DNA of 64,000 nucleotides, from contig SUUE01000001.1 in assembly GCA_015062685.1 (NCBI GenBank), forward strand, positions 271,704-335,703, given 5' to 3'. Shown piece by piece: positions 212-64,000 of the stretch (its first letter is position 1; each line of letters starts with the position of its first letter). A program made the translations under genes and the position numbers. Origin of the DNA: Coriobacteriaceae bacterium (GTDB taxonomy: Bacteria; Actinomycetota; Coriobacteriia; Coriobacteriales; Eggerthellaceae). The notes beneath the pieces are model-generated. The model did no database searches. It was not told the origin of the DNA and saw only the letters and a program-made list of their open reading frames with translations.

Positions 212-227
212 GTCGTCGCTCCTTCTT

Positions 228-1675: not shown

Positions 1676-2098
1676 GGTGTCTGCAGTTCGTCTTTGCCAC
1701 CATCCCTGGCCGCTAGCCCACACGTGCGCGGACAAGCCCGATAACGTAGCAGGCCGGACGATCACGCGTAGGGTGTGCGCCGCTGCCCGGGCGTGACGCA
1801 TGACGGACGCGCGCCCCGATAACGCTGCCATAGGCCAGATGGCGGCGTAGCGTGGGCTGAGCACGCGGCCGGAGGCAGACCGCGTCAGCGGGCTGCCGTA
1901 GGCGCGTATGCGAAGACCACGCGGAGCCGACAGCTGGCCGTGCGGGAGACTTCCTGGGCGCGCGGCCGGCATGTGGCACGAACGGGCCGAGCGCACACCC
2001 GGAGCGTGGACGGCCGGGCTGCGGACAACCCGAGGTTGGCAGCGCGCGTGCGGGCCAGCGGCCAGGGATAGCGGCAAAACAAAACAATGTCCACACCC
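1676..2098. repeat. Long imperfect inverted repeat (about 400 bp)
   Basis: The two halves are reverse complements in one register centred at 1885.5. Segments 1693-1698 and 2073-2078, 1702-1714 and 2057-2069 (ATCCCTGGCCGCT versus its complement), and 1771-1780 and 1991-2000 (GGGTGTGCGC versus GCGCACACCC) all pair with coordinate sum 3771. A small indel shifts the register closer to the centre. Outside the arms the similarity continues weakly (GGTGT on both sides). A transcript would fold into one very long rod. It could be an inverted duplication, a MITE-like remnant or a structured RNA; nothing visible decides between these. Confidence 0.65.
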
Positions 2099-2118
2099 CG
2101 AGGTATATCGGTTTCGCA

Positions 2119-2159
2119 CGAATACCTACTCTTTGATAACATGTATTCGTATGTATTCG
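2119..2159. promoter_or_regulatory. Three GTATTCG heptamers upstream of the restriction operon
   Basis: CGAATAC (2119-2125, inverted) is followed by two direct copies of ATGTATTCG (2141-2149 and 2151-2159) with a 10-bp period, ending 24 bp before the RHH gene start. Repeated short sites at helical spacing are typical of ribbon-helix-helix operators. Autoregulation by the RHH protein encoded next is an inference. Confidence 0.45.
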
Positions 2160-2182
2160 GTTCGCATTAGGAGGCAACCACC

Positions 2183-2398
2183 ATGGGATACCGTGATTTG
2201 GTTGATAAGGGTGCAGACCGGACTGAGATTCAGTCTTTTCTCGCTCAGGGCGAAATGGCCACGACGACCATACGCATTCCCGCCAACCTCAAGGCAACCA
2301 TCATGGAGGAAGCATCACTTTCGGGGATGAGCTTCTCTGCTTACGTTCGGCAATGCGCCATCCAACGGCTCATGACCGAGGCGGGTGTTTCTAAATGA
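2183..2398 (+). CDS. Ribbon-helix-helix DNA-binding protein
   Basis: A 71-residue protein. Residues 25-66 (TTIRIPANLKATIMEEA, then SFSAYVRQCAIQRL) match the strand-helix-helix pattern of MobC/Arc-like RHH proteins, in which the TTIRI strand contacts DNA. The start is fixed by AGGAGG at 2169-2174. The stop overlaps the hsdR start (ATGA at 2395-2398), so it is translationally coupled to the restriction genes. It is likely the operon's repressor or expression timer, an inference supported by the heptamer repeats upstream. The first 24 residues, before the strand, do not resemble a known domain. Confidence 0.75.
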   Translation: MGYRDLVDKGADRTEIQSFLAQGEMATTTIRIPANLKATIMEEASLSGMSFSAYVRQCAIQRLMTEAGVSK

Positions 2399-5300
2399 GC
2401 GGCAACTTCGACTTCTTCTCAAATGAGTTTCCCGCTTTGGCCACATTCGGCAACCAGGCTGAGAGCTATTGCAAGGACGACTCGAATTCCGCACTAATCA
2501 AGGTAGGCATGATCGGCGAGAGCATCGTCGACATGATCTACGGCTTCACCGGAGTTGAGGAGCCCGCCGACCAGAAGGCGGTAACGAAGATCAACCGCCT
2601 AGCGAGCGAAGGGTATCTTCCGCAGCAGATTGTGAGCGTGCTGCACGAGATGCGCAAGGCGCGTAATCAGGCAGTCCACGAGGGCTACGAATCGGTAGAG
2701 CTTGCAAGCGGTCTGGTGCGAATAGCTTACAGCGTTTGTCTGTGGTTCGCCATGGCCTTCGGCAACGAGCAGTACGAGATGCGACCCTATGCGGAGCCTT
2801 CCGAAACGGAACCCGAGGACAAGTCTGACGCGCCGAAGAAGACGAGCGAAGCCGAGGACGAGAAACTGGCTGAGGAGGCGAAGGCAAAGGCGAAGGCCGC
2901 TCCGAAGGTCTCGAAAGCTGAGCGTGTCAAGCGCGTCCTGGAAGCCGAAAACCAACGGCCCAAGACCGAGAAGGAAACACGCCTTCTCGTGGACGCTGCG
3001 ATGCGCGACGCCGGCTGGGAAGCCGACACCGAGACGATCCGCCATTCCAAGGGCGCACGGCCCAAGAAGGGCCACAGCATGGCAATCGCCGAATGGCCGA
3101 CTGATTCCAGCATCGGTGACAGCGGTTACGTGGACTACGCCTTCTTCGTCGACGAGACGATGGTGGGGACGGTCGAAGCGAAAGCGGAGCGCAAGGACGT
3201 GCTCTCTGTGCTCGACGTCCAATGCAAAGACTACTCGAGCCATATTCGCCAAGTCGATTACTGCTACGTCGCAATCGAGTACGACGGACGCTACCAGGTA
3301 CCTTTCACGTTCGCAACGAACGGGCGGCCCTACCTAAAGCAATACGAGACCAAATCCGGCATCTGGTCGCTCGACCTTCGCGACCCGTCGAACGCACCGA
3401 AACCGCTACGCGGCTGGCCGAGGCCGCAGGCGCTGATGAGGATGCTGCAGGAGGACGTCAAGGCCGCGAACCAGCGCCTCGCAGATGAACCGTACGACCT
3501 CCTGCGAGACAAGGACGGGTTGAACCTACGCGAATACCAGATAAAGGCCGTCGCAGCGGCCGAGAAGGCCGTGATCGCCGGCAAGCCATCCGCCCTCATA
3601 GCCATGGCGACCGGCACGGGCAAGACGCGCACGGCGCTCGCGATGATCTACCGGTTCCTCTCGACCGATCGCTTCCGGCGCATCCTGTTCCTCGTGGACC
3701 GCGACGCGCTCGGCGAACAGGCCGAGGACGCATTCAAGGACGTCAAGATTGAGCAGCTCATGGCGCTCGACAAGATCTACGAGGTTAAGGGCCTCGACTC
3801 TGCCGAGATAAACCCCGAGACGCGTATTTCCATCGCAACCGTGCAGAGCATGGTGAAGCGCATCATGTACGACGACGGCGAGGGCAACAAGCCCGCCGTG
3901 ACCGACTTCGACCTCGTCATCGTGGACGAGGCGCACCGCGGCTACATCCTGGACAAGGAGATGACCGAGGAGGAGTCGCTATACCGCGACCAGCGCGACT
4001 ACCAGAGCAAGTACCGCGCCGTGATCGACTACTTCGACGCGATGAAGATTGCCCTCACGGCTACGCCGGCCCTGCACACGACGCAGATATTCGGCGCACC
4101 CGTGTTCCAGTACACGTACCGCGAGGCCGTCATCGACGGCTACCTGGTCGACCACGACGTGCCGCACACGCTCAAGACGAAGCTCACCGAGGGCGGCATA
4201 CACTACAAGAGCGGCGATACCGTGACCGTATACAACCCGAAGACCGGCGAGCTCATCAACGGTGCCGAACTCGAAGACGAGCTTGACTTCGACGTCGACG
4301 ACTTCAACAAGAGCGTCGTTGACGAGAACGTCGACCGGGCGATACTCGAGGAAATCGCTGCCTACATCGACCCCGAGGCGCCAGAGGAGCAGGGCAAGAC
4401 GCTCATATACGCGGTGGATGACGCACATGCCGACATGATCGTGCGCATCCTCAAGGACATATACTCCGAGACGGGAGTGGACAACGATGCCATCATGAAG
4501 ATTACCGCAGCGGCGGGAGGCGGCAACCCCAAGCGAACCCGCGAGCTCGTGCGCAGGTTCAAGAACGAGCCGTACCCGTCAATCGCCGTGACCGTCGACC
4601 TTTTGACCACCGGCATCGACGTGCCCGAGCTGACAACTCTCGTGTTCATGCGCCGCGTGAAGTCGCGCATCCTGTTCGAGCAGATGCTCGGCCGCGCCAC
4701 GCGCCTGTGCCCCTCCATCCACAAAACGCACTTCGAGATATTCGATCCCGTGGGCGTGTACGAGGCGCTGGAGCCCGTGAGCACCATGAAGCCGATATCG
4801 GCAAACCCGACCACGACCATTGCGCAGCTCATCGACGGACTGGACTACTACGAGGACGACGATGACGTGCAGGTGCAGATAGACAAGCTCGTCGCCAAGC
4901 TGCAGCGCAAGATACGCGCCTTGAGCGACAAGCAGCTCAAGGCCGCCGAAGAGCACGCCGGGTTCTCCTTCCAGGAGTTTACTCGCGACCTGCACGGAGA
5001 CGACCCGCAGGCAGCGAAACAGCGCGCCAAGCAGCAACGGGAAATCCTTGCCGCGCTCGACGAGGTGCACGCAAACAAGGGCCATGCGGTCGTGATATCA
5101 GACCAGCCAGACGAGCTCGTGAGCCACACGCGCGACTACGGCGGCGGAGCGAGGCCGGAGGACTATCTCGAGGCGTTCAGCGAATACATTGCGACCCACG
5201 TCAACGAGGTGGCCGCACTCAACCTCTGCGTCACCAAGCCTGCCGACCTGACGCGCGAGACGCTGCGCGAGCTCGAGCTGACGCTCGACCGCGCCGGATT

Positions 5301-5670
5301 CAACGCGACACGCCTGAACAGGGCCATATCCGAGATGACCAATGCCGAGATGGCGGCGGACATCATAAGCCTCGTACGGCGCTACGCAATCGGCTCCATC
5401 CTGCTTAGCCACGAGGAACGCATACACCGGGCAGTGGAACGTCTCAAATCCGCCCATAGCTTCAGCAAGCAGGAGCTGAACTGGCTCGACCGCATCGAGA
5501 CCTACCTGATCAACGACTCCGTCCTGAACACGTCCGTATTCGACGCCGACGAGCGCTTCAAGAGCAAGGGCGGATTCAAAAAGCTCGACAAGGTATTCCA
5601 CGGGGAGCTTGTCGACATCGTCCACGAACTGAACACCTACCTGTATGACGACAAGGGGCGTGCTGCATGA
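2395..5670 (+). CDS. hsdR: Type I restriction endonuclease R subunit, with DUF4145-like N-terminus
   Basis: A 1091-residue restriction and translocation subunit that cuts DNA after ATP-driven translocation once the M2S complex meets unmodified target sites. Residues about 15-110 form a helical DUF4145-like module (LHEMRKARNQAVHEGY). A charged linker rich in Lys/Ala/Glu follows (about 125-180). Next comes the nuclease domain with GYVDYAFF near 243 and VEAKAE near 261 (D...E-x-K), then helicase motifs ATGTGKTRT near 404, IVDEAHRGY near 513, TATPA, TTGIDVPEL and a GRATR motif, and a C-terminal EcoEI-type region. The length is normal for the EcoEI/EcoKI group. It overlaps both neighbours by four bases. 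Confidence 0.93.
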   Translation: MSGNFDFFSNEFPALATFGNQAESYCKDDSNSALIKVGMIGESIVDMIYGFTGVEEPADQKAVTKINRLASEGYLPQQIVSVLHEMRKARNQAVHEGYESVELASGLVRIAYSVCLWFAMAFGNEQYEMRPYAEPSETEPEDKSDAPKKTSEAEDEKLAEEAKAKAKAAPKVSKAERVKRVLEAENQRPKTEKETRLLVDAAMRDAGWEADTETIRHSKGARPKKGHSMAIAEWPTDSSIGDSGYVDYAFFVDETMVGTVEAKAERKDVLSVLDVQCKDYSSHIRQVDYCYVAIEYDGRYQVPFTFATNGRPYLKQYETKSGIWSLDLRDPSNAPKPLRGWPRPQALMRMLQEDVKAANQRLADEPYDLLRDKDGLNLREYQIKAVAAAEKAVIAGKPSALIAMATGTGKTRTALAMIYRFLSTDRFRRILFLVDRDALGEQAEDAFKDVKIEQLMALDKIYEVKGLDSAEINPETRISIATVQSMVKRIMYDDGEGNKPAVTDFDLVIVDEAHRGYILDKEMTEEESLYRDQRDYQSKYRAVIDYFDAMKIALTATPALHTTQIFGAPVFQYTYREAVIDGYLVDHDVPHTLKTKLTEGGIHYKSGDTVTVYNPKTGELINGAELEDELDFDVDDFNKSVVDENVDRAILEEIAAYIDPEAPEEQGKTLIYAVDDAHADMIVRILKDIYSETGVDNDAIMKITAAAGGGNPKRTRELVRRFKNEPYPSIAVTVDLLTTGIDVPELTTLVFMRRVKSRILFEQMLGRATRLCPSIHKTHFEIFDPVGVYEALEPVSTMKPISANPTTTIAQLIDGLDYYEDDDDVQVQIDKLVAKLQRKIRALSDKQLKAAEEHAGFSFQEFTRDLHGDDPQAAKQRAKQQREILAALDEVHANKGHAVVISDQPDELVSHTRDYGGGARPEDYLEAFSEYIATHVNEVAALNLCVTKPADLTRETLRELELTLDRAGFNATRLNRAISEMTNAEMAADIISLVRRYAIGSILLSHEERIHRAVERLKSAHSFSKQELNWLDRIETYLINDSVLNTSVFDADERFKSKGGFKKLDKVFHGELVDIVHELNTYLYDDKGRAA

Positions 5671-7169
5671 CAACACAGGAAATCGTCGCAAAGCTCTGGA
5701 ACCTCTGCAACGTCCTTCGGGATGACGGCATAACCTACCAAGACTACGTGACCGAGCTCACCTACATTCTATTCCTCAAGATGCTCCAGGAAACAGACCG
5801 CGAGAAGGTCATAGCCCAGGGCGTAAAGCTGGCCGAGGGAGACGACCTAACGCCTGAGCAGGAGAACGCGAACAAAGAGAAGAAGGTGGTTCTCGACTAT
5901 AGCTGGGACACGCTGGCTCATAAGGACGGTCTCGACCTCTTCAACTACTACAAGACGCTTCTGAGGGTGTTCGGCGACTACTGCACCGGGCGCGTGCGTG
6001 AGATCTATTCGGGCGCAAGCACCAACATCGACGAGCCCGCCAACCTCAAGAAGATCATAACGAGCATCGACGGGCTCGACTGGTACTCCGCCCGCGAGGA
6101 GGGCCTCGGCGACCTGTACGAAGGACTGCTCGAGAAGAACGCGAACGAGAAGAAATCCGGTGCCGGCCAGTACTTTACGCCGCGCGTGCTCATCGACGTT
6201 ATGGTGAGGCTCGTTGCCCCGCAGCCGGGAGAGCTGTGCAACGACCCGGCGGCAGGCACTTTCGGCTTCATGATTGCCGCCGACGCCTACGTGAAGTCGC
6301 AAACTGACGACTACTTCGATCTGAAAAGCGACGAAGCCGATTTCCAGCGCAAAGAGGCGTTCACAGGACGCGAGCTCGTGCACGACACGCACCGGCTTGC
6401 CCTCATGAACGCTATGCTACACGGCATCGAGGGCAAGATCGAGCTGGGCGACACGCTCTCACCCGCTGGAGCGTGCAGCCAGGTATACGATGTGGTGCTG
6501 ACGAACCCGCCTTTCGGAACGAAGAAGGGCGGCGAGCGAGCGACGCGAGACGACCTCACCTACGTGACGAGCAACAAGCAACTTAATTTCCTGCAGCATA
6601 TATACCGCAGCCTCAAGAAGGGCGGGCGTGCTGCCGTGGTACTGCCCGACAACGTCCTCTTCGAAGACGGCGTCGGCGATCAGATTCGCTGCGACTTGAT
6701 GGACAAGTGCCGACTGCACACCGTTCTCCGCCTGCCGACCGGCATCTTCTACGCCCAAGGAGTGAAAACCAATGTGCTTTTCTTTGAGCGCGGTAAGACA
6801 GACAAAGGCAACACGACCGAGGTTTGGTACTACGACCTGCGCACGAACATGCGCAGTTTCGGAAAGACTCATCCGCTTTCTCGTGAGGATTTCGTCGACT
6901 TCGAAGCGGCATATACTGCCGAAAATCGACGCGCCGTGCAGGACGAACGTTGGCACGTGTTTACGCGTGACGAGATACGCAAACACGACAGCGCAGGGAA
7001 CGAGACGAACAGCCTGGATATCGGCCTCATCCGCGATGACTCGATCGTTGACTACGATGACTTGCCTGACCCCATCGAGAGCGCCGAGGATGCCGTCGGC
7101 AAGCTAGAGGATGCAATCTCCCTGCTGAACGGAGTCGTTGCCGAACTCAAGTCTTACGAGGTGGAGTAA
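5667..7169 (+). CDS. hsdM: Type I DNA methyltransferase (M subunit)
   Basis: A 500-residue N6-adenine methyltransferase that modifies the sequence chosen by HsdS and is part of the restriction complex. The N-terminal HsdM helical domain (residues 1-140) is followed by GQYFTPR, the AdoMet-binding motif I DPAAGTFGF (near 193) and catalytic motif IV NPPFG (near 280). Motif I has Ala where Cys is common (DPACGTG), which is tolerated in the family. The start overlaps the hsdR stop (ATGA). The C-terminal helices are expected to contact HsdS. Confidence 0.94.
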   Translation: MTTQEIVAKLWNLCNVLRDDGITYQDYVTELTYILFLKMLQETDREKVIAQGVKLAEGDDLTPEQENANKEKKVVLDYSWDTLAHKDGLDLFNYYKTLLRVFGDYCTGRVREIYSGASTNIDEPANLKKIITSIDGLDWYSAREEGLGDLYEGLLEKNANEKKSGAGQYFTPRVLIDVMVRLVAPQPGELCNDPAAGTFGFMIAADAYVKSQTDDYFDLKSDEADFQRKEAFTGRELVHDTHRLALMNAMLHGIEGKIELGDTLSPAGACSQVYDVVLTNPPFGTKKGGERATRDDLTYVTSNKQLNFLQHIYRSLKKGGRAAVVLPDNVLFEDGVGDQIRCDLMDKCRLHTVLRLPTGIFYAQGVKTNVLFFERGKTDKGNTTEVWYYDLRTNMRSFGKTHPLSREDFVDFEAAYTAENRRAVQDERWHVFTRDEIRKHDSAGNETNSLDIGLIRDDSIVDYDDLPDPIESAEDAVGKLEDAISLLNGVVAELKSYEVE

Positions 7170-8629
7170 TGGCCGCCAGGAAGAAGCGTACTCTCACGCC
7201 TGAAGAACAGCTGGAAGCTGCCCTCGTGCCGGAAGAGGAGTGGCCTTACGAGCTGCCAGACAACTGGTGCTGGGTTAGGCTGGGTACATGCATTAGTAAA
7301 TCAACCGAAAAGTCAAATACTAATGACCCGACTGTACTTTACGTTGGATTGGAGAATTTTGAGAGCGGAGCTGGCATAGCTGGCTATGCCGATGCAAGTG
7401 GCACGAAGAGCGTCAAGAGTGTTTTTCGTCCCGGACAAATCCTTTATGGGCGGTTGCGTCCATATTTGAATAAGCACGATGTTGCTAAGGTCGAAGGCGT
7501 ATGCTCAACAGACATCCTTGTTTATGAACCAACTGAATGTGCCGAGGCTCAATACGTGAATCTCTTTCTCGACACGAAGGAATTCATCGAGCACGCAGTG
7601 AGTCATTCAAAAGGTATTAATCTGCCCCGTGTTTCACCGACTGAGATAGAGGCGGCCTTTTTCCCATTGCCACCTTTACACGAGCAGCGGAGAATCACAT
7701 CGCGAATCGAATGGCTCTTCGCCAAGCTCGATGATGCAGAGGCTGAGCTACGCGAGGTTATTAGTGACTCAGAAGGGCGACAATCTTCGGTTTTGCATAG
7801 CGCCTTTTGCGGCGACCTTACGACACAATGGCGTCGTAAGCACGAAGGTCATGATGCGTCACCGATTGCTGATATTGCGGCATTTGCAAAGGACTGGAAG
7901 ACAAAGGACCAACGGCTTCTTGTGGAACAGCAGGCTAAATGTGTCGATCGGGACTTGGACGGACATATTTGGACTGAGTGCACCGTAGGTGCTATTGGAC
8001 GAGTAACAAATGGCAGTACTCCTTCGAGAAAAGTCCCTGCTTACTGGGGAGGCGATATCCCTTGGGTTAGTTCTGGCGAAGTTCGAAACAATATCATTAC
8101 CGAAACGCATGAGTGCATCACCGACGAAGGATATAACAGGACCTCAGTCAATCTACTACCAGCTGGAACCGTGCTTATAGCCATGATCGGCGAAGGAAAA
8201 ACGCGTGGTCAAAGTGCAATTCTGCATATACCCGCAACTATCAATCAAAACGTTGCTGCAGTTGTTATTGATCATGGATTTGTTGAGCCTCGGTTCCTCT
8301 GGTATTGGTTTAAGTACAGCTATAGGCGTAATCGCGAAGCCGGATCTGGGACTGGACCGCAGGCTCTGAACTGCCAACGTGTACGCGAGCTACCTTTTAT
8401 ACTCCCGGGAAAAGACGAGCAGGCAGAGATTGTAAGACGCCTTGATATTTTGCTCGAGCGTGAACAGCAGACGCAGTCTCTGGCACTTGACGCGCTGGAA
8501 GCGATTGGCAAAATGCGGCAAGCCGTACTTTCAAAAGCACTGCATGGCGAGCTCGGAACCAACGATCCAGCACAGCCGAGTTCGAAAGAGTTGCTTGCCA
8601 GCATAGTGAGCGGAAATGCTGGCAAATGA
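7169..8629 (+). CDS. hsdS: Type I restriction specificity subunit
   Basis: A 486-residue target recognition subunit. Two half-site modules are visible: TRD1 (about residues 30-170) followed by a conserved helix (LPPLHEQRRITSRIEWLF), then TRD2 (about 265-410) followed by a second helix (KDEQAEIVRRLDILLE). The TRDs are clearly AT-richer (roughly 7290-7660 and 7990-8330) than the flanking helices and the neighbouring genes, as expected where recognition domains are exchanged by recombination. The start codon overlaps the hsdM stop by one base (TAATG). The recognised sequence cannot be predicted here. Confidence 0.93.
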   Translation: MAARKKRTLTPEEQLEAALVPEEEWPYELPDNWCWVRLGTCISKSTEKSNTNDPTVLYVGLENFESGAGIAGYADASGTKSVKSVFRPGQILYGRLRPYLNKHDVAKVEGVCSTDILVYEPTECAEAQYVNLFLDTKEFIEHAVSHSKGINLPRVSPTEIEAAFFPLPPLHEQRRITSRIEWLFAKLDDAEAELREVISDSEGRQSSVLHSAFCGDLTTQWRRKHEGHDASPIADIAAFAKDWKTKDQRLLVEQQAKCVDRDLDGHIWTECTVGAIGRVTNGSTPSRKVPAYWGGDIPWVSSGEVRNNIITETHECITDEGYNRTSVNLLPAGTVLIAMIGEGKTRGQSAILHIPATINQNVAAVVIDHGFVEPRFLWYWFKYSYRRNREAGSGTGPQALNCQRVRELPFILPGKDEQAEIVRRLDILLEREQQTQSLALDALEAIGKMRQAVLSKALHGELGTNDPAQPSSKELLASIVSGNAGK

Positions 8630-8648
8630 TCGGCACGAGGTGGATGAT

Positions 8649-10856
8649 ATGGATGAGACGAAAACAAACTGCACATGGATCGCCTTTTACCAAGAGCTAG
8701 CCGGCGCGCTTCTTCCCTACAAAGACAACCGCGGAAGATTGATTGAGAAACTTCTGGCCCTGTACGATGACATCGGCATGAAGTTTCCAAAGCTTGACAG
8801 CACCACGGTGCCTGCTGACATCGACCCATACACCGTCTACGGGCTCTTCAACAAGGGCATCTCAGAGACAAACCGGAAGAAGATCATCATCGCCATCGCC
8901 GATGCGTTTGGCATCGAAGCTGATGTGCCGAGTGATTTCGACGGAATCCCCGTGCTCAACAACCTCAATGCTACCTTCTACGCATTCGTAGGCGATGACC
9001 GGCGCGGCGAGTACGACATCGATAACCTTTGGCGGGTTTTCGAGGCTGAGCTTGCTCTAGCAGCCAACGATACTTCAGAAAACCGGAGGGAGTTTGTCGA
9101 GGCGTTCAACGCCGCGGTCGTTCAGTTCGGCCTTGGTTGGAAGCTCACCATGGGGCTTTACTGGGTGCGTCCGCTCTCCTACATCAATCTTGACTCGCGC
9201 AATCGGTGGTTCATGGGGGACGTGTCTAAAACAGGGCCCAGCATCGCCGGGATCGTACCGAAGGAAAAGGATTCCCCGATCCACGACGGCGAGCAGTACC
9301 TCGCCATATGCGACGCCATAAGAGCGGAACTCGGTAGCGATGCCTGCCCCTACTCCGACTTCCCCTCGCTATCCAACGCCGCCTTTGTCGAGTCTGAGCG
9401 CGTCAACAAGGAGAAGAAGGCGGCGGAGAAGGCCGCAGAGCAGGAGGCCGAGGAGAACTCGCTGGGTGACGCAGGCGTCGAGACCACACACTACTGGCTC
9501 TATGCCCCAGGTGAGGGCGCCGCGAGATGGGACGAGTTCTATGACCGTGGGGTGATGGCGCTCGCATGGAGCAAGATCGGCGACCTCAGCGCTTACGAGA
9601 CCAAGGAGGACCTGCGACAGGCGCTACTCGTGCAGTACAGCGATAAGACCTCGCAGAAGAACTCCGCGCATGCGCTTTGGCAGCTCGTTCATGACGTGAA
9701 GCCCGGCGACGTTATCTTCGCGAAGCGAGGTATGAGCGAGATCATCGGACGCGGCGTCGTTGTCGGCGACTATGAGTACGTGCAGGACGGCAGCGACTAC
9801 TATCCCAACCTGCGCCGCGTGAGGTGGACCCACAAGGGCAGCTGGCCCAGGGACAAGAAGTTCGCCCAGAAGACGCTGACAGAAGTGACGGACTACACCG
9901 ATTTCGTAGCCGAGGTGTCCTCGTACTTTGAGGACGTGGTCGACGACGACGCCATCGATGAGATCGGCGGGGACGAGCCCACTCCTGACTACCCCGAGTA
10001 CGACAAGGATCAGTTCCTCAGCGAGGCATACATGAGCGAGGAACAGTACGACACGCTCGTCGGCGTGCTCCGCTCGAAGAAGAACATCATCCTGCAGGGC
10101 GCCCCCGGCGTAGGAAAGACCTTCGTGGCCAAGCGCCTGGCCTACTCGATGATGGGCGTGAAAGATCCCGAGCGCGTGATGATGGTGCAGTTCCACCAGA
10201 GCTACAGCTACGAGGACTTCATCGAGGGCTACCGGCCGTCGGCTGACGGCTTCGAGCTCGAAAAGGGAGCGTTCTACACCTTCTGCAAGAAGGCCGCCGA
10301 AGACGACGAGAACGCGTACTTCTTCATCATCGACGAGATCAACCGCGGCAACCTCTCCAAGATCTTCGGCGAGCTGTTCATGCTCATCGAGAACGACAAG
10401 CGCGGCTCCAAGAACAAGCTGCAGCTGCTCTACTCCCGCGAGCTCTTCTATGTCCCGAGCAACGTATACCTCATCGGCATGATGAACACTGCCGACCGGT
10501 CGCTGGCGATGCTCGATTACGCTCTGAGGCGCCGGTTCGCGTTCTTTGACCTGAAGCCTGGCTTTAGCTCTGACGGGTTCGTCACGTACCGCGACGGGTT
10601 GGGAAGCGCAAAGCTCAACAACCTGCTCGCCTGCGTGGTGCGCCTGAACGAGGACATCGCCAAGGACGAGACGCTGGGTGAGGGATTCTGCATCGGGCAC
10701 AGCTACTTCTGCGGCATGAAGGCGGAGGACGTGACCGACGCAAAGCTCTCCGCCATCGTGGAGTACGAGCTCATACCCATGCTGCGCGAGTACTGGTTCG
10801 ACGAGCCGGGCAAGGTGCGGGAATGGGCCGATGCGCTGCGCAGGTCCATAAAGTGA
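8649..10856 (+). CDS. mcrB: McrB-like AAA+ restriction motor with EVE/PUA-like sensor
   Basis: A 735-residue GTPase/ATPase subunit of a type IV (modification-dependent) restriction system. The N-terminal part (about 1-270) resembles the helical/α-β region seen in long McrB homologues. Residues about 279-437 (HYWLYAPGEG, WDEFYDRGV, KPGDVIFAKRGMSEIIGRG) look like an EVE/PUA-type modified-base reader. The motor has Walker A GAPGVGKT (near 483), Walker B FFIIDEINRG (near 557) and the McrB signature MNTADRSLAMLDYALRRRF. I chose the ATG at 8649 because of the GAGGTGG site just upstream; a longer start at 8616 overlaps hsdS. The sensor assignment is inferred from pattern. Confidence 0.88.
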   Translation: MDETKTNCTWIAFYQELAGALLPYKDNRGRLIEKLLALYDDIGMKFPKLDSTTVPADIDPYTVYGLFNKGISETNRKKIIIAIADAFGIEADVPSDFDGIPVLNNLNATFYAFVGDDRRGEYDIDNLWRVFEAELALAANDTSENRREFVEAFNAAVVQFGLGWKLTMGLYWVRPLSYINLDSRNRWFMGDVSKTGPSIAGIVPKEKDSPIHDGEQYLAICDAIRAELGSDACPYSDFPSLSNAAFVESERVNKEKKAAEKAAEQEAEENSLGDAGVETTHYWLYAPGEGAARWDEFYDRGVMALAWSKIGDLSAYETKEDLRQALLVQYSDKTSQKNSAHALWQLVHDVKPGDVIFAKRGMSEIIGRGVVVGDYEYVQDGSDYYPNLRRVRWTHKGSWPRDKKFAQKTLTEVTDYTDFVAEVSSYFEDVVDDDAIDEIGGDEPTPDYPEYDKDQFLSEAYMSEEQYDTLVGVLRSKKNIILQGAPGVGKTFVAKRLAYSMMGVKDPERVMMVQFHQSYSYEDFIEGYRPSADGFELEKGAFYTFCKKAAEDDENAYFFIIDEINRGNLSKIFGELFMLIENDKRGSKNKLQLLYSRELFYVPSNVYLIGMMNTADRSLAMLDYALRRRFAFFDLKPGFSSDGFVTYRDGLGSAKLNNLLACVVRLNEDIAKDETLGEGFCIGHSYFCGMKAEDVTDAKLSAIVEYELIPMLREYWFDEPGKVREWADALRRSIK

Positions 10857-11908
10857 TCCGCATACAGAACATCTACTACATGCTCGCCTACGCCTTCCAG
10901 GTGCTACGCGAGCAAGGCTACCGCGACGTGGCGACCGAGGAGTTCGCCAACACAGCCGAGCTCTATGCAGCAATACTGGCGCGCGGCGTAACCTCGCAGC
11001 TCAAACGCGGCCTCGGGCGCGAGTATGTCGACCGGACCGACACGCTCTCGACCCTGCGCGGCAAGATCGAAGTGAGCGAGTCCGTGAAGACGCGCTCAGT
11101 GCTGCGCCGACAGATGGTCTGCAGCTACGACGAGTTCAGCGTGGACACTCGCATGAATCGGGCCATCAAGGCGACGATGGGGCTGCTGTTGCGCTCCGAC
11201 ATCGATAAGGCGCGTAAGAAGGAGCTCAAGCGGCTGCTTGCATACTTCGGGGAAGTGGGCGACGTCGACCTCGCTACCGTGGACTGGAACATGAGGTTCG
11301 ATCGGAACAACCAGACCTATCGCATGCTGATGAACGTTTGCTGGCTTGTTGCGAAAGGGCTTCTACAAACCCAGGCGGACGGGTCGTCGCGCCTCATGGA
11401 CTTTCTCGACGAGCAGCGCATGAGCAGGCTCTACGAGAAATTCATTCTGGAATACTACCGGCGCGAACATCCCGAGCTGAACGCCGAGGCGTCCTACATC
11501 GCCTGGGCGCTCGATGACGGGTTCGATGACATGCTGCCTGCGATGCACAGCGACGTTACGTTATCGCAGGGCTGCAACGTTCTCATCATCGATGCGAAAT
11601 ACTATTCGCACACGACACAGCAGCAATTCGACAAGCGCAGCGTGCACTCGGGCAACCTGTACCAGATATTCACTTACGTCAAGAACAAGGAGGCAGAGCT
11701 CGCCCGGGCAGGCATGCCGCATGAGGTGTCTGGCATGCTGCTCTATGCCAGGACTGACGAGGATGCGCAACCGGACGGCGTATACCAGATGAGCGGCAAC
11801 CAGATAAGCGTAAGGACCCTGGGACTCAACATGCCCTTTGAGGAAATTCGAAAACAACTAGATAGAATAGTTACCGAGCACTTCAACCGGAAGGCGATTG
11901 CCGTATGA
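10853..11908 (+). CDS. mcrC: McrC-like nuclease subunit
   Basis: A 351-residue partner of McrB that supplies the nuclease. The family opening 'IQNIYYMLAYAF' is present at once if translation starts at GTG 10853, which overlaps the mcrB stop (GTGA), so I prefer this start to the ATG at 10823. The nuclease core lies near residues 228-250, with MHSDVTL and then IIDAKYY (D...D-x-K). A long helical middle section (RMNRAIKATMGLLL) is typical. The 3' end overlaps the next gene (ATGA at 11905). The GTG start may keep the McrC:McrB ratio low. Confidence 0.9.
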   Translation: MIRIQNIYYMLAYAFQVLREQGYRDVATEEFANTAELYAAILARGVTSQLKRGLGREYVDRTDTLSTLRGKIEVSESVKTRSVLRRQMVCSYDEFSVDTRMNRAIKATMGLLLRSDIDKARKKELKRLLAYFGEVGDVDLATVDWNMRFDRNNQTYRMLMNVCWLVAKGLLQTQADGSSRLMDFLDEQRMSRLYEKFILEYYRREHPELNAEASYIAWALDDGFDDMLPAMHSDVTLSQGCNVLIIDAKYYSHTTQQQFDKRSVHSGNLYQIFTYVKNKEAELARAGMPHEVSGMLLYARTDEDAQPDGVYQMSGNQISVRTLGLNMPFEEIRKQLDRIVTEHFNRKAIAV

Positions 11909-11950
11909 CAGATGCGGGCAAGAAACCAATAACAAAGGCGAATAGCGAGT

Positions 11951-11979
11951 TTTCTCCGCAACGCGGAGATAATTCAACT
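11951..11979 (+). repeat. 29-bp direct repeat, copy 1, around CTCCGC-N3-GCGGAG
   Basis: This segment matches 12276-12304 at 25 of 29 positions, and each copy is centred on the palindrome CTCCGC-N3-GCGGAG. The spacing is 325 bp, inside the broken DUF1016 gene. The copies lie in different reading frames, so protein-level conservation does not explain them. Confidence 0.6.
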
Positions 11980-12275
11980 AGCCCCAGTAGTGATGTTTCT
12001 GCAGCAACTGATATATTGTTTGAAGCTGTCTCCAAGCTTATTCAAGATAGCTATGCTCGCGTATCGTCGAAGGTTAACGCCGAAATGACGGAGCTTTACT
12101 GGCAGGTGGGTAGCACAATCAACGAGGTTTTGCTAGGTGGGGAGCGTGCGGAGTACGGCGCTGAGATTATTTAGGAACTCTCCTCGCATCTAACGCAGAC
12201 GTACGGACGCGGATGGAGCGCCCAACAGCTTCGTCATTGCAGGCATCTGGCCCACACGTTCGCGCACGACGAAAA

Positions 12276-12304
12276 TTTCTCCGCATTGCGGAGAGAATTG
12301 AACT
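12276..12304 (+). repeat. 29-bp direct repeat, copy 2
   Basis: Partner of the segment at 11951-11979. Here it encodes FSALRRELN within the family-conserved part of the nuclease, so this copy is likely the ancestral one. Confidence 0.6.
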
Positions 12305-13203
12305 GGGCATGCATCAAGACGATCATGTATATCGACGAGCCGCTCAAGCGCGACTTCTACATCGAGATGTGCAAGATGAACAACTGGGACTCGCGCACGT
12401 TGAGCGGCCGCATCAAGTCGATGCTCTACGAGCGCACGGCAATCGCAAAGAAACCAGACGAGGTGATCGCGAACGACCTGGAACAGCTGAGAGAGGAAGG
12501 CGAACTGTCGCAGGACCTCGTCTTCCGCGACCCCTACTTCCTCGATTATCTTGGCCTTCACGGAGATTATTCCGAGCGCGACCTCGAATCGGCAATAGTA
12601 GCCGAGTTGCAGCACTTCATCACCGAGCTTGGCAACGACTTCGCCTTCCTCGATCGGCAGAAGCGCATAACCATTGACGGGCGTGACTACTACATCGACC
12701 TGCTCTTCTTCCATCGCAGGCTTCGGCGACTCGTCGCCATTGAGCTGAAGCTCGGGGATTTCGAAGCCTCGTTCAAGGGCCAAATGGAGCTTTACCTTCG
12801 TTGGCTCGAAAGGTACGAGATGGTCGAGGGCGAGAACCAGCCCATCGGCCTCATCCTGTGTTCGGGCAAGAACGACGAGCACGTCGAGCTGCTTGGACTG
12901 GACGAGGGCAACATCCGCATGGCGGAATACATCACGCAGCTGCCGCCGATGGAGGTGTTGGAAGAGAAGTTGCGCCTGGCGATTAGCAAGGCACGAAGGA
13001 GGCTGGAAGAGTAGGTGAAAACAGCATAAAGCTGGCGCAGAAATGGAGCCGACAAGAGGCTGAGGTGAGTTGCTCCATTATCAACAGCGTAAACCATGTG
13101 AGAATGAGCTTAAGCAAAGGGGGGAACCGTTAAATCACTCGTTTTCAGTACTCCGGAATAATGCCAGCATACCTAGGGATTTGAACGATTACGCAAAGAG
13201 CAG

Positions 13204-14949
13204 CTATTGATTTGCTTTCTTCACTGACTCGATGGCATCGAGTGTCCATCGTTTCCTTACAGGGCCAAGCTTACTGTTCAATTCGATGGCAGAGATATTC
13301 CTCGACAATTCTTCTAACCATGAAACGACCTCCTCCTTCTTCTCGGAATCGCTCCATCGAAACAAGTCTAGCGATTTGATAAACTCGAATATGCTCATCT
13401 GCGATTCGGCGTTACCTCGCTCAAAGCATTTGGCAATATCACCTGGAAACGCGTCTAGAAACGATGAGGGGTTCTCATTCTGTGCTTCTCTCAGCTGCTG
13501 AGCCATCACTACACCACAGCGCGAATCTTCTAAGTCCAGTTGATTCGCGCGATTGCTTCGAACAGCCTTCTCGTGCTGGTTAACGCAATAGGCATCCGCC
13601 TGCCTCAATGCCTCGCAATCATGCCATAACTGGCCGTTCCATTCTTTGTATCTGCCATGGAAGCGCACAAAGGCGCAATCAACATCGAGATCTATCATCT
13701 TCTTAGCACAAGATAGCGACTCATCCGGCGGCACCGCCTCCTCGAAGCCAAGCTTGAAAAGGTAATCGTTCACCTCAAGGGCTGAAACCAGGTCGTACGG
13801 ATCGAAGCTACACTTTCGAATGGAGCAGGAGAGGCGTTCAATCTTTGGTACGACTGTCTCGTCATCCTCCGTCGTGCACCCTTTCAGGCGTTCCAAGGCG
13901 GTCTTCATTTCGAGGACGTCTTCCGATTCAGGATACCGCCTCCTCATGTATTCATCTATCGAGGCATCCACGTCATCTTGCTTGATGATGCGACTTGGAT
14001 CGAAGAAATCCCCAATTACTCTCGCATCGCGGTATCGCTCATATCTCATCTTATCGAGCACCCATTGCATCCGCTCATCATCGCTCACATCTCCAGCATT
14101 GTGAACTCGGGACGGGTCCTCAGGCGCCTTGCCCATCGCCGTTTCAAACGCGAAGGCAAGCAGCTCCCTTAACGCATGCCGAACATTCTCGCTCGCATAA
14201 GGCCCCTCGTTGACCACCGATGACGCGAAAGCCATCCTCACGAGAGGCTCGGACTTGATCATCGCGCGAACGTTTACGCACCCCGAATCGCATGCGGCCA
14301 TATCCAACAACTCGAGAGCGCCGTTAAACGGACACGATTCGGCCATGTCGCCGAACACGCTCCGCACAACGTCGCGCATATCAGGCTCAAAACTCACAAT
14401 TCTCCAGACGAGCTTTTCGCGAATCTCGGCGTCAATCGCCTCAGCGGAGTTCGCAATGAAAACTACCTTGCAACCTTGGTTCTCCACGAGATTGTTGATT
14501 GCCCCGAATAGCTCTGCTTGATCGAGCTCCTGATTCCGCCGCTCGACGTCGTCGAGAACGAGAACCGTCCCATCTCCGCACATGAAGCTCGCTGCGAACT
14601 TAGCGCTGGCCTGGTACGAGACCCCTGTCCTCTTGAGCAGATGGGATAGGAACCCCTTTAGCCCATCGAAAACTGCTTCGCCCCTCATTGTCTTGCTGTT
14701 TCCCTTATTGCCAGGAAATCTCGCCACCGCCGCGAGTATCCTCTCGAAGAGTTCCTCTACCGAAGACAAGCCGAACATCGACACGCGCACCAAGCTCAAC
14801 CCCTGCGCTTCGAGGACTCCCCTTAGCCGAGTCTCGACGTACCGCGTCTTACCTGAGCCCCATTCGCCCACGATAGCGACCGCATAACGCCTCTCCTTCT
14901 CATTCGCGTAATCCAAAATGAAACTCGTAATCTGTTCAGTCGTAGGCAT
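13204..14949 (-). CDS. KAP-family P-loop NTPase
   Basis: A 581-residue protein with the KAP NTPase pattern: Walker A IVGEWGSGKTRYVE (residues 25-38), Walker B VLVLDDVERR (about 131-140) and a sensor strand KVVFIANSAEAID. The C-terminal 350 residues are helical and unassigned, and no membrane segment is obvious. KAP NTPases occur in several antiphage systems and usually need a partner effector; none is encoded on this strand nearby. The gene is convergent with the restriction operon (189 bp between stops). It has a lower GC content than the operon, consistent with separate acquisition. The start ATG at 14949 is the first Met of the conserved region. Confidence 0.8.
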   Translation of the reverse strand: MPTTEQITSFILDYANEKERRYAVAIVGEWGSGKTRYVETRLRGVLEAQGLSLVRVSMFGLSSVEELFERILAAVARFPGNKGNSKTMRGEAVFDGLKGFLSHLLKRTGVSYQASAKFAASFMCGDGTVLVLDDVERRNQELDQAELFGAINNLVENQGCKVVFIANSAEAIDAEIREKLVWRIVSFEPDMRDVVRSVFGDMAESCPFNGALELLDMAACDSGCVNVRAMIKSEPLVRMAFASSVVNEGPYASENVRHALRELLAFAFETAMGKAPEDPSRVHNAGDVSDDERMQWVLDKMRYERYRDARVIGDFFDPSRIIKQDDVDASIDEYMRRRYPESEDVLEMKTALERLKGCTTEDDETVVPKIERLSCSIRKCSFDPYDLVSALEVNDYLFKLGFEEAVPPDESLSCAKKMIDLDVDCAFVRFHGRYKEWNGQLWHDCEALRQADAYCVNQHEKAVRSNRANQLDLEDSRCGVVMAQQLREAQNENPSSFLDAFPGDIAKCFERGNAESQMSIFEFIKSLDLFRWSDSEKKEEVVSWLEELSRNISAIELNSKLGPVRKRWTLDAIESVKKANQ

Positions 14950-15122
14950 ATTTGCTCCACTCGCTTCCGCAGAATCATTATTCGCACTTTCGTCAAATAG
15001 ATGAAGTGCCCTCTTATCGCATCCGTACTTTCTCAGGTACCCAACCCTCTACAGCGCTGCCCGTAAGCATAGTCGTTAAAGGAAGGGTGCAATCCGTCTG
15101 CAGCTCTTCGTAGAAAACGCGT

Positions 15123-15144
15123 CAATTTGAGGAACCTCAAATTG
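15123..15144. promoter_or_regulatory. Perfect palindrome CAATTTGAGG-AA-CCTCAAATTG
   Basis: Two 10-bp arms with a 2-bp centre, 174 bp upstream of the KAP NTPase start on its strand. It is the shape of a dimeric repressor operator, and its regulator is not identifiable here. It also overlaps the end of the protein-like remnant at 15122-15253. Confidence 0.45.
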
Positions 15145-15456
15145 GCTTCGACAGAATGGCTACAACGAAAAGATCTTTCCTGTTCCTTGAGCTGTCAATA
15201 GCCCGCCTTAGTGCTTCCTTTTCCAGTGTGTTAATTGGCGTGAAGAGTTCTCGTCAATACACTTGCTAATCAGTTTTGTTTGTCAGCGGTCATGGTATTT
15301 CTTTTGGTCGCTTTAGAAGCAAACCATAGCACAGCCATCTAGCCGGCGTAGGTTGCTACATCATGATTGGAGAACAGTCGTAATCGAAGGCGTGGGTTTT
15401 CGTTTTCATGTCAACGCTCGCTTTCGAACTTGATAACAGAACATACAGCGCGATGA

Positions 15457-15539
15457 CGAAAAGGTTTTCATTCGTGACCACCTTTTCGGCTAAGCCAATC
15501 GGAGCGGAATTCGTGACTACCTTTTCAAATCAGCCAATC
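15457..15539. repeat. Direct and inverted repeats beside the tRNA fragment
   Basis: ATTCGTGACYACCTTTTC...AGCCAATC occurs twice with a 39-bp period (15470-15500 and 15509-15539). The first copy also forms a perfect inverted repeat, CGAAAAGGT (15457-15465) with ACCTTTTCG (15480-15488). Repeats of this size close to an att site resemble recombinase arm-type or excisionase sites, which is an inference. Confidence 0.5.
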
Positions 15540-15666
15540 CTCAGCCAATGCTAAGCCAACACGCGAGATTCCCAGTTTTCGTCAGTCATCGTCAGTTTTC
15601 GATTTCCCCAGTTCAAGCCAGCGTTACCTATCGTCAGTCATTCCCTGTTATCGCCGCCCTGCCCAA

Positions 15667-15711
15667 CTGTCACGTCGGAGGTCGCGAGTTCAAGTCTCGT
15701 ACATCCCGCCA
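15667..15711 (+). other. tRNA 3' half (anticodon loop to CCA), attachment-site remnant
   Basis: The segment reads as an anticodon loop CTGTCAC, 3' anticodon strand GTCGG, variable loop AGGTC, T stem-loop GCGAG-TTCAAGT-CTCGT, 3' acceptor strand ACATCCC, G and CCA. The bases to its left cannot form the 5' half: there is no GGGATGT acceptor strand and no partner for GTCGG. It is therefore not a gene but a fragment starting at or within the anticodon loop, a common crossover point for tyrosine recombinases. The loop would read GTC (Asp), which is tentative. Confidence 0.65.
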
Positions 15712-15720
15712 CGAAACACC

Positions 15721-15752
15721 AGCTCAGCCCACTAAACGGGCTGAGCTTTTTT
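15721..15752 (+). terminator. Intrinsic terminator behind the tRNA fragment
   Basis: A 10-bp perfect stem, AGCTCAGCCC (15721-15730) with GGGCTGAGCT (15738-15747), has a 7-nt loop and is followed by TTTTTT. It is most likely the original terminator of the tRNA gene whose 3' half lies 10 bp upstream. Confidence 0.8.
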
Positions 15753-15917
15753 CTTGCCGGGAGGTGTTTTTCGCAAATAGTGGATGCCGCCTAGCTGGCT
15801 CGGCGCGCCGAGTTCGAGGAGCAGCACCAGCACGGCAATCGCCAGGACGGTTGCTCAGTGGTTTTTGTATTGCCTGCACTTCCCGTTGGCCGTAGTGGAA
15901 ATGCAGCAGGGCCCGCC

Positions 15918-17270
15918 CTACGTTCCTATGCAGAATGCGGCATAGAGGGGAAGGTGTTTCACCATGCACCCCGCCTCGCCGCCTTCAGTGGCGGAGAAGT
16001 CATTTGTCGAGAGCAGGTATGCGACGGGCGAACGCCCTTCCTTGACGAGCCGCGCGAGGCTCTTCGCCTTCACGTTGCGGCCCGACTTCACCTCTACCGG
16101 CACTATGCGCGCTTGCCGGTCCTGGAAGACGAAGTCGACTTCGCCGTTCCCGACCTTCGCGCTGGGCATCCAGTAGAACGTGGCGATTCCGTTGGCGCGC
16201 AGGGCCTGCATGACGCTGTTCTCCGCGAGCGCTCCGCGGAAATCGTCCGAGAGCAGCGACTTCAGTTTCGGATCGAGGAACAGCTCGGCTTCTATCCCGA
16301 ACTTGTGGAACATCAGCCCCGTGTCGCATATGTATTCCTTGAAGTAGCTGCCCCCGTCGCTGTTGAACGGGGCAAGGGGGGCGCTCGTGTCGCACGTGAG
16401 GTCGTTGCGCAGCACGATTCCCGCCGCCTCGAGCCATTCGAGCGGCTCGAGCAGCTGCGAGCGCCTGCCGCCACGCATGACCTCCGAGTACTTGAACTTC
16501 TTGGTCGACGCGCGGAGGAGCTGCTTGGGGAGGCTTTCCCAGATGCGCTTGGCGGCCGCTGCGCTAATGCCGTTGTCGGGATCCGTCATGTCGGCCGTGT
16601 ACGTGATGTCGATTTCCCCGTGGACCTCGCGCACTTCGCCGAACGAGCCCGAATCTCGGTATGCGCGCACCGCCTTGGGCATACCGCCGACTGCGAGGAA
16701 ACGTTGGTGGTAGTCGCTTGCGCGGTCGTGTAGCAGGTAGGGCTCGCATGTCTCGGCGTGTTTTCGGATGTCCGCCGCCATGGATTGCTCGCCGAGCGCC
16801 CAGAGAAACTCCTCGAAGGTCAGGGGGTACATGCGCACGTGCTTTACATCCGAAGGGAAGGGCAGCTTGCGCTGCTTCACCGTGACGCCGAGCAAACTAC
16901 CCGTCGCGGCGACGCGCCAGGGCGAGCCCGCGAAGAAGCGCAGGCTGTTCAACGCCTTTTCGCAAAGCTGCACCTCGTCGAGCAAGATAAGGGAGCTCTC
17001 GGGGCTGAGGGGCTTCCGCTTGTACTCCGAGATACGCGCCACGATACCGTCGATGTCGTCGGTCGGGACGTCGAAGATCGCCGAGGCGCGTTCGAGGTCG
17101 GTCTGGAAGTCGAGTTTTACGAAGCCGTCGCCGTAGAGCCGTTTGCCGCATTGCTCGACCAGGAACGTTTTGCCCACGCGGCGCGCTCCTTGGATGAGCA
17201 GCGGGCGGGGATCGTTTCCTGTCGCCCACTTCTCGAAGTCCGTTTCGAGCACTCGTCGCATCGCTTGCAT
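15918..17270 (-). CDS. AAA family ATPase with DUF4143 domain (second)
   Basis: A 450-residue protein of the same AAA_14 + DUF4143 family as the gene at 228-1439 but only distantly similar. It has Walker A IQGARRVGKTFL (near residue 28), Walker B SLILLDEVQL (near 92), sensor VAATGSLLGV, the DUF4143 helical region (LAVGGMPKAVRAYRDS), and a C-terminal nuclease-like GEVDFVFQDR...VPVEVKSGRN. The start at 17270 has a GGAG site 3-6 bases upstream. It is transcribed away from the Sel1 lipoprotein. Its promoter region contains two perfect palindromes, so it is probably tightly repressed or self-regulated. Confidence 0.87.
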   Translation of the reverse strand: MQAMRRVLETDFEKWATGNDPRPLLIQGARRVGKTFLVEQCGKRLYGDGFVKLDFQTDLERASAIFDVPTDDIDGIVARISEYKRKPLSPESSLILLDEVQLCEKALNSLRFFAGSPWRVAATGSLLGVTVKQRKLPFPSDVKHVRMYPLTFEEFLWALGEQSMAADIRKHAETCEPYLLHDRASDYHQRFLAVGGMPKAVRAYRDSGSFGEVREVHGEIDITYTADMTDPDNGISAAAAKRIWESLPKQLLRASTKKFKYSEVMRGGRRSQLLEPLEWLEAAGIVLRNDLTCDTSAPLAPFNSDGGSYFKEYICDTGLMFHKFGIEAELFLDPKLKSLLSDDFRGALAENSVMQALRANGIATFYWMPSAKVGNGEVDFVFQDRQARIVPVEVKSGRNVKAKSLARLVKEGRSPVAYLLSTNDFSATEGGEAGCMVKHLPLYAAFCIGT

Positions 17271-17283
17271 AGAGCTCCAATCA

Positions 17284-17330
17284 ATTACATGTAATAGAAC
17301 TACACGAAATTATATTATTTCGTGTAGTTC
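17284..17330. promoter_or_regulatory. Two perfect palindromes in the ATPase promoter
   Basis: ATTACATGTAAT (17284-17295) is immediately followed by GAACTACACGAAAT (17297-17310), a 6-bp AT centre and the exact complement (17317-17330). They lie 14-60 bp upstream of the DUF4143 ATPase start. Their size and perfection suggest operators or, for the larger one, a transcript hairpin. Confidence 0.6.
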
Positions 17331-17378
17331 AATACAATAAGTTGCAGGACAAGGGGAGCGCCCTCTTCCATAAAAATG

Positions 17379-17425
17379 AGACAGCGGAGCCTGACCCCCC
17401 CGCTGTCTGATGTTTTTGGTAGGTT
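17379..17425. terminator. Bidirectional terminator-like hairpin
   Basis: AGACAGCGG (17379-17387) pairs with CCGCTGTCT (17400-17408). A-rich sequence lies on the left and T-runs on the right (TGTTTTTGG, then TTTTTTA), so it could stop transcription in either direction between the divergent ATPase and lipoprotein genes. Confidence 0.45.
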
Positions 17426-17514
17426 TTTTATAGGCTCGTATGCTCCGTAGCCTGCTTCCGTGGTAACAATGGCTGCGCCCGTGGATAACGAGCTTGATGT
17501 GAAAGGTGGAGGCC

Positions 17515-18675
17515 ATGAAGAAATCCCCGGTAGTCGCATTGGCATGCTGCGCGCTGACGCTGGCGTTGGGGCTCGCCGGATGCGGCGGGAGCGGAAGTGC
17601 CTCGTCGGCGGCATCGGGCAGCGCAGCCAGCGCCAGCGCAAGCGCAAGTTCTGTTTCGCCAGAAGGCGCGGCGACGTCCGAGGGCAAGATGGCGCTCAAC
17701 GAGGGCATCGATTACTGGTTCGGCATCAACGGCAAGGCCTTCGACATGGCCAAAGCGCGCGACGCATTCAAGAGGGCAACCGAGTTCGGCAGCGCTGAAG
17801 CCTATTACTGGCTTGGTGACGTGCGCCGATACGACCAAGACGCCGGTCGCTGGCCCGAGGTGCTCGCCTTCTACCAGAAAGCAGTCGACAAAGGTTCGTC
17901 CTACGGATACTACGGCCTCGGCACGCTCTACGAGACGGGCTACGGGGTCGATAAGGACGTCCAGAAGGCAATCGAGCTTTACCAGAAGGCGGCCGACGGG
18001 GGATGCCTGATGGGCAATGTGGGGTTGGGCAACCTCTACAGCGGCATCTGCGGCATCGACAACGGTGTCGCAGTTGACGCTGCGAAAGCGCAAGCCAACT
18101 ACACCGCCGCGCTCGAAAGCGAGGATTTCGCGACCCGTAACGCCGCTCGCGTGGGCTTGGGCGACCTGAATCGTTATGCCATCGGCGCTGAAGCTGACCA
18201 GGCCAAGGCGCTCGAGTGGTACCAGAAGGCGGCAGACGAGGGCTATTACCTGGCTTGCCGACGTGTGGGCGATACGTACCGCCCTGACGCCGGCATTGCA
18301 GAAAGCGATCCCGACAAGATGGTTGAATGGTACGGGAAAGAGGCGGCAGGCGGCTTTTCCTATTCGCTCGGCGCGGTGTACATGAACGGCATTGGCGTCG
18401 AGGCCGATCCCGCGAAGGCGCGCGAGATCTTCCAGAACGCCCTCGACGAGGGCGATCGCAGCGCGGCGATGTGCATGTGCGGGCTTGTGCTCATGAACGC
18501 CAACGGAATTGGACAGGATAAAGACAAAGAGGCCGCCATTGATTGGTGCTACAAGGCAATCGACGCATGCGGGCCCTTCGACGACAGCGACAACCCTGAA
18601 GAAAGGCTGCACAAGCCGTTGCCGTACGCGAGGTATGTCCTCGAGCACTACGGCCAGCCGCTCGAGCGCTCGTAG
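17515..18675 (+). CDS. Sel1-repeat lipoprotein
   Basis: A 386-residue exported lipoprotein. The lipoprotein signal peptide (MKKSPVVALACCALTLALG) ends in the lipobox LAGC, followed by a Ser/Ala-rich spacer. About seven Sel1/TPR-like units follow, for example 'YYGLGTLYETGYGVDKD', 'ALEWYQKAADEGYYLACRRV' and 'GAVYMNGIGVEADPAKARE'. Sel1 proteins act as protein-binding scaffolds, here on the outer face of the membrane; the partner is unknown. I chose the ATG at 17515 because AAAGGTG lies at optimal spacing; the GTG at 17506 is too close to it. No operon partner is apparent. Confidence 0.82.
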   Translation: MKKSPVVALACCALTLALGLAGCGGSGSASSAASGSAASASASASSVSPEGAATSEGKMALNEGIDYWFGINGKAFDMAKARDAFKRATEFGSAEAYYWLGDVRRYDQDAGRWPEVLAFYQKAVDKGSSYGYYGLGTLYETGYGVDKDVQKAIELYQKAADGGCLMGNVGLGNLYSGICGIDNGVAVDAAKAQANYTAALESEDFATRNAARVGLGDLNRYAIGAEADQAKALEWYQKAADEGYYLACRRVGDTYRPDAGIAESDPDKMVEWYGKEAAGGFSYSLGAVYMNGIGVEADPAKAREIFQNALDEGDRSAAMCMCGLVLMNANGIGQDKDKEAAIDWCYKAIDACGPFDDSDNPEERLHKPLPYARYVLEHYGQPLERS

Positions 18676-18689
18676 CGCGAAGGCTTTTC

Positions 18690-18913
18690 TTATTCTCCAA
18701 GCAAAAAATCTCGCTTCTTGAACACGAACGTCTTGTAGCGGAAGGCATCGGCTTCAGTACTTGAGCGTTCCGTTTGTGCCGAAAAGCCCGTCGTGCTCCT
18801 CCTGGCTAATCACCTTGGTGCTGATGCCCTTCGCGCCCGCGCAATCTATAGCACCTTGAAGACTCCAGGTATCGGTCCAGAACTTGCCCGTCTCGTCATT
18901 GACGACGGCATAG
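18690..18913 (-). pseudogene. C-terminal gene remnant with frameshift
   Basis: On the minus strand a frame without any start reads IGRKPYAVVNDETGKFW, TDTWSLQGAIDCAGAKG and ISTKVISQEEHDGLFGTNG, then LKY and a stop (18754-18756). The frame one base over continues as EADAFRYKTFVFKKRDFLLGE and ends at TAA 18690-18692. Together they read as the C-terminus of one protein, broken by a frameshift near 18756 and truncated at its 5' side at about 18913. I do not recognise the family. Confidence 0.55.
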
Positions 18914-63986: not shown

Positions 63987-64000
63987 CTCGTCAACAAGCT

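Follow-up and report, generated by a model that had tools for sequence, protein, structure and literature searches.

The window analysed here (the whole stretch of 64,000 nucleotides, C22:271704-335703 of the 350-kb contig C22 from a Coriobacteriaceae genome) holds, at positions 15667-15711, a displaced 3' half of a tRNA-Asp(GTC) gene, and our analysis supports its interpretation as an attR, the right-hand attachment site left by a tyrosine-integrase element that lies to its left and carries defence genes. Very probably, this element is about 25 kb long, has its integrase gene on the small contig C47, was split by a misjoin of the assembly at an IS21-family insertion sequence (IS), and is stacked with other elements at tRNA-Asp.

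In a within-genome search the fragment (CTGTCAC...CGCCA) matched the sole intact tRNA-Asp(GTC) of the genome (E 3e-17), located on the reverse strand at the extreme end of contig C24 (C24:11798-11723), with identity at every base:

15667-15711, + strand: attR core, displaced tRNA-Asp(GTC) 3' half (nt 32-76), 45/45 against C24:11723-11767 (- strand)

It comprises the anticodon loop CTGTCAC, the 3' anticodon strand, a 5-nt variable loop, the T arm, the acceptor strand, the discriminator base and CCA, whereas the tRNA likeness breaks off leftward at 15667 and the 5' half is absent. An earlier interpretation made from the letters only (the sequence-only reading) had described it in these terms, as a tRNA 3' half starting at or inside the anticodon loop, and had anticipated an intact tRNA gene with a matching 3' half, which proved to be the one on C24. 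Thus, as in tRNA-gene islands, the displaced 3' fragment is identical to the intact tRNA of its own genome. ARAGORN and Rfam detected no tRNA in the window, and a scan of IMG/VR with the attachment-site (att) core yielded no exact match, so that phage use of the site is not indicated there.

Neither a tRNA-Asp nor a fitting integrase was found in the 287 kb of C22 left of the fragment (271 kb of which lie left of the window), the sole PF00589 match there being far off, at 158 kb. This, together with the gene order around tRNA-Asp, which varies among species of the genus, could be taken to mean that C22 is correct as assembled, that a chromosomal rearrangement (an inversion or deletion between att copies) parted the fragment from tRNA-Asp, and that the defence genes lie outside any tRNA-Asp element. 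We consider that very unlikely. The sole leftward path crosses a multi-copy IS21-family element (C22:266157-268738; 2,582 bp, with istA and istB) that is common to two more contigs: C47 (4,261 bp) and C12 (146,170 bp) each end precisely on the first 77 bp of the copy crossed by C22, as is typical where a k-mer assembly has collapsed a repeat. On insertion, members of the IS21 family duplicate a few target bases. Where the IS is entered from C47 (...GCCCTCCC) and left into C22 (CTCCCATC...), its flanks form a 5-bp target duplication, which is absent with the left part of C22 (...CAATTTG) and with C12 (...CGAGAA). Furthermore, the 10-mer GCTAAGCCAA has two copies in C47 (89 and 100) and two in the window (15489 and 15550), with none elsewhere in the 350 kb of C22 (expectation 0.49). 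The former pair lies in the left end of C47, which carries a gene for a 451-aa tyrosine integrase (C47:90-1445; PF00589, 1.2e-23) near an element end, as in islands; the latter pair lies immediately left of the fragment:

15470-15666, + strand: right terminus of the defence element, bearing arm-type repeats for an integrase (GCTAAGCCAA, 15489 and 15550); 97% against G001:C247:4437-4634

The same junction was found free of the IS in a sister element, L194 (JAFUCQ010000123.1, an Atopobiaceae metagenome-assembled genome from roe deer jejunum), retrieved when public genomes were scanned once with the C47 integrase, to which its protein is 96% identical. L194 has, in order, an exact tRNA-Asp core, a left end with 97% identity to the tail of C24, both arm repeats, and the integrase with the rest of C47 at 85–89%; the C47-type sequence then runs directly into sequence of the right part of C22, the 5-bp target being present only once, and continues with hsdR and hsdM (84–87% nucleotide identity) and McrB (80% over window 8512-9421, the 5' part of the gene). 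For the 20 kb that precede the IS on C22, L194 has no match. Since only C47 provides the 5-bp duplication, the pairing of GCTAAGCCAA and the order of the sister element, C22 is misjoined at the IS21 copy and the true left neighbour of the window side is C47, the integrase of which is assigned to the defence element on the same three grounds. Based on the IS-free order in L194, C47, the IS and window 1-15666 constitute one element with the tail of C24 as its left end; this bears out the sequence-only reading in its polarity, with an element on the left that spans the defence genes. The IS21 copy would have entered the element later, and the assembler would then have tied the right part of the element to unrelated chromosome. 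Once the IS21 copy had been analysed, we abandoned the ideas of one giant island on C22 and of an inversion there. The gene block C22:332104-341764 (in the window from 60401 to 64000), found directly upstream of tRNA-Asp in many family members though not in the present genome, might have pointed to an inversion; it was rejected as such a sign because G000 and its near relative G014 have another neighbourhood upstream of the tRNA (the end of contig C8, 84%), and its placement is a species-level change of gene order.

The left side of the island is on C24, where tRNA-Asp is followed by an 11.6-kb mobilizable element with a LuxR-like gene, a relaxase (PF03432, as in integrative mobilizable elements, IMEs), an AAA_25 protein and an integrase, then by a second tRNA-Asp 3'-half copy and 137 bp of further DNA. 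Because this element is 98–99.5% identical in G008, compared with about 77–88% for chromosomal genes between species of the genus, it has moved recently. The ends of C24 and C47 (L004:1-90, L179:1-90) carry matching 22-bp inverted repeats, TATAGGCAARAACGTGTTGCCG, bordered by a 10-bp direct repeat, GGAATCGCGG; one further insertion, probably a transposon in the left end of the defence element, thus has its two ends in the final 70-odd bases of C24 and the opening bases of C47, which accounts for the break between the two contigs. The intact tRNA therefore stands at the opposite end of the island from the fragment and in the same orientation, across contigs, with the C24 IME and a gap in between.

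With high confidence, the overall order is C8 (the upstream flank, ending before the tRNA), tRNA-Asp, the C24 IME, att, the defence element, att (15667) and a decayed element, and within the defence element C47, IS21, NACHT/HSDR_N, DUF4143 ATPase, type I restriction-modification, McrBC, YhcG-type nuclease and KAP NTPase. The earlier expectation of an intact tRNA left of the window, with an integrase beside it, was consequently right in part: tRNA-Asp does belong to the left once the misjoin is recognised, and a fitting integrase is present on C47, but the 11.6-kb C24 element intervenes between the tRNA and the defence element. Some further points weigh against this reconstruction. tRNA-Asp and position 15667 share no contig, their order having been derived from contig ends, the sister element and repeat pairing; the probable second transposon in the gap between C24 and C47 is seen by its ends alone; the IS21 junction was read from assembled contigs alone; and L194 was compared from att to McrB, its right end lying beyond the compared stretch.

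The att copies, the pairing of arm repeats and the C47 integrase all agree with the proposal that a tyrosine-recombinase element inserted at a tRNA gene and displaced its old 3' end. The C47 integrase would recombine an element-borne tRNA-Asp 3' half with the chromosomal tRNA-Asp copy, with a crossover presumably within or beside the anticodon loop, the point at which the copies begin; the intact tRNA would be kept at the left and the 3' half displaced to the right of the cargo. The C24 element, with its relaxase and own integrase, may have been the last to enter and would now stand between the tRNA and the defence element, which, with a decayed third element at the right, would amount to tandem accretion.

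This third element begins directly after the fragment and shows the features of an element's left end:

15712-15783, + strand: decayed left end of the next element, with CGAAAC linker, terminator and shortened arm repeat (AAATAGTGGATGCC against AAAAAGTGGCTAAAAAGTGGCTAAGGATG)
15918-18675, no single strand: right-flank mobile segment with DUF4143 ATPase (15918-17270, - strand) and Sel1-repeat protein (17506-18675, + strand); the shared segment ends at 18742

Positions 15667-15783 are 96–97% identical to element left ends in G005:C18 and G008:C50, and the segment up to 18742 is found at 97–98% in G008, G014 and G005 with the same end base in all, whereas core genes there reach about 82–88%. At the right boundary of segment 15712-18742 the tRNA core is absent. 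The terminator that the sequence-only reading had attributed to the fragment does exist as a strong hairpin at 15721-15752 (10 pairs and a T run; fold z = -3.3), but the fragment proper is confined to its 45 bases, and with 15712-15752 the next element already begins; the terminator belongs to that element of the array and is not necessarily the ancestral one of the tRNA. Similarly, the fragment ends the defence element, as had been claimed, but not the island: it is a junction of two elements, and the stacked island extends to at least about 18.7 kb.

An att copy in such an array is common to two neighbours, and it might be asked whether the fragment is the footprint of the decayed right element (15712-18742), or a copy older than the defence element, and unrelated to the defence genes; against our interpretation, the right flank opens as elements typically do at their left end, and its counterpart in G008 comes after a different att copy, which is degenerate. 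We regard this as highly improbable, given that the 197 bp left of the fragment carry the arm repeats of the C47 integrase end and recur at 97% beside the core in G001:C247 with different cargo, which means that the left element, too, has its right end at this att copy. The same right flank occurs without the defence element, after different DNA on its left, in G008:C59 and G014:C153, which shows modular accretion and does not refute an island. No clean empty attachment site (attB) was found among the relatives.

Extra tRNA-Asp 3'-half copies were detected in 9 of the 15 genomes of the genus, mostly starting exactly at nt 32 and often in direct tandem. Copies in direct orientation stand between neighbouring elements, as in tandem accretion, in G010:C28 (four), G004:C157, G008 and G000. 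Nearly all have CGAAAC, a terminator hairpin and short direct repeats on their right side, and other direct repeats on their left. These repeats pair between element ends (TTGAACGGAAT on C24, GGTGCACAC on G004:C157, with similar families AGTGGCTAA, GAGCAGAATTT and GGGGACA elsewhere) and are putative arm-type binding sites of differing integrases. Integrases adjoin the intact tRNA and are directed at it in G010:C92, G005:C18 and G001:C425. Half tRNAs can also arise by decay, but a chance likeness, or a pseudogene formed by duplication or decay without integration, has a negligible probability here: the copy is exact over 45 bases in a genome with one tRNA-Asp, many copies elsewhere share the nt 32 boundary beside element ends, and the arm pairing and tandem arrays disfavour both. 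In G014:C229 (L074:700-810) another 5' half, incomplete, stands in tandem before the intact tRNA-Asp (GGGTGTTAGCTCAGTTGGTTAGAGCGCCGG twice), which may reflect an artefact of the assembly or abortive recombination.

The tRNA-Asp gene is thus an accretion hotspot of the genus, with integrase-less defence cassettes between att copies. Integrase-less units are present in G010:C28, G008:C59, G016:C23 and G018:C78, and the array in G010:C28 (L071:162-12654) consists of four cores and three such units:

5.4 kb: TOTE protein and PDC-S27 ATPase
6.0 kb: AbiEi-AbiEii and TOTE
0.84 kb: CdiA_C nuclease, recurring in G008

Because the cassette ends of G010:C28 resemble those of integrase-bearing elements, mobilisation of cassettes in trans is possible. 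In integrons, repeated recombination sites separate units of one or a few genes, and a tyrosine integrase stands at one end. The tRNA-Asp locus might be integron-like for anti-phage genes, its cassettes, with their own terminators and arm repeats, being moved in trans by co-resident integrases, although we hold this to be rather unlikely. The locus departs from integrons in that tRNA 3' halves with arm-type repeats take the place of attC hairpins and the units come with terminators of their own; an integron integrase was not identified. It is more economical to regard the cassettes as decayed former IMEs (cis-mobilizable elements, CIMEs; PMC5704250) than to invoke trans-mobilisation. The defence element itself is not a CIME, which would have kept its att sites and lost its integrase and transfer genes, since it has the C47 integrase; no relaxase or oriT was recognised in its sequenced part. 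Its cargo is as follows:

C22:268984-271914 (5' end at window 1-211): NACHT/HSDR_N protein, left of the AAA_14/DUF4143 ATPase
228-1466, - strand: AAA_14/DUF4143 ATPase (PDC-S01)
2395-8629, + strand: type I restriction-modification, hsdR, hsdM, hsdS
8616-11908, + strand: McrB-like AAA GTPase (8616-10856) and McrC (10823-11908), type IV restriction
11905-13014, + strand: DUF1016/YhcG PDDEXK nuclease in two pieces (11905-12174, 12286-13014)
13204-14949, - strand: KAP-type P-loop NTPase (PADLOC PDC-S49)

The DUF1016/YhcG nuclease gene, being in two frames, is probably frameshifted and broken. Window 1-15666 has few nucleotide matches in the relatives: weak ones (66–70%) inside some genes, a short repeat at 1.7-2.1 kb, and the terminal 197 bp, which are also found at 84–88% in G010. 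The element combines variable cargo with a constant end. The short repeat spans about 390 bp (window 1692-2083) and forms an imperfect inverted repeat with itself (70%); it occurs at 93–94% in G012:C52 and G005:C9 and also in L194, and is perhaps a small mobile or structured repeat.

The mechanism as such is already known from tRNA-gene islands and from IME/CIME accretion; what is new is the member, the host group, the defence load and the spread across families. In islands catalogued by Islander, a tyrosine integrase targets a tRNA gene, the intact tRNA is restored at one end and a 3' fragment is left at the other (PMC4383910); our element shares the type of target, integrase class and end structure, but differs in that elements are stacked and the tRNA pair is split across contigs by insertion sequences. 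In tandem accretions of the ICESt1 type in Streptococcus, neighbours may keep att sites yet lose the integrase, and distantly related integrases have a common target (PMC5704250), whereas here a gut Coriobacteriia genus is the host, tRNA-Asp serves as the target, and defence genes prevail in the integrase-less units examined. Site-specific, repeated insertion at one RNA gene is also reported for the ssrA islands of Dehalococcoides (PMC3146451), which are set apart by their tmRNA gene target and other cargo.

Close kin of the defence element thus occur in two families of gut Coriobacteriia, and tRNA-Asp can be named as a hotspot for defence genes in this poorly studied group. A large defence cluster (type I restriction-modification, McrBC, NACHT and KAP NTPase) is tied to a specific integrase and att site, which makes its transfer testable. 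Furthermore, the case illustrates that an insertion sequence can lead the assembler to separate an island and its tRNA, a break that would mislead automatic island finders.
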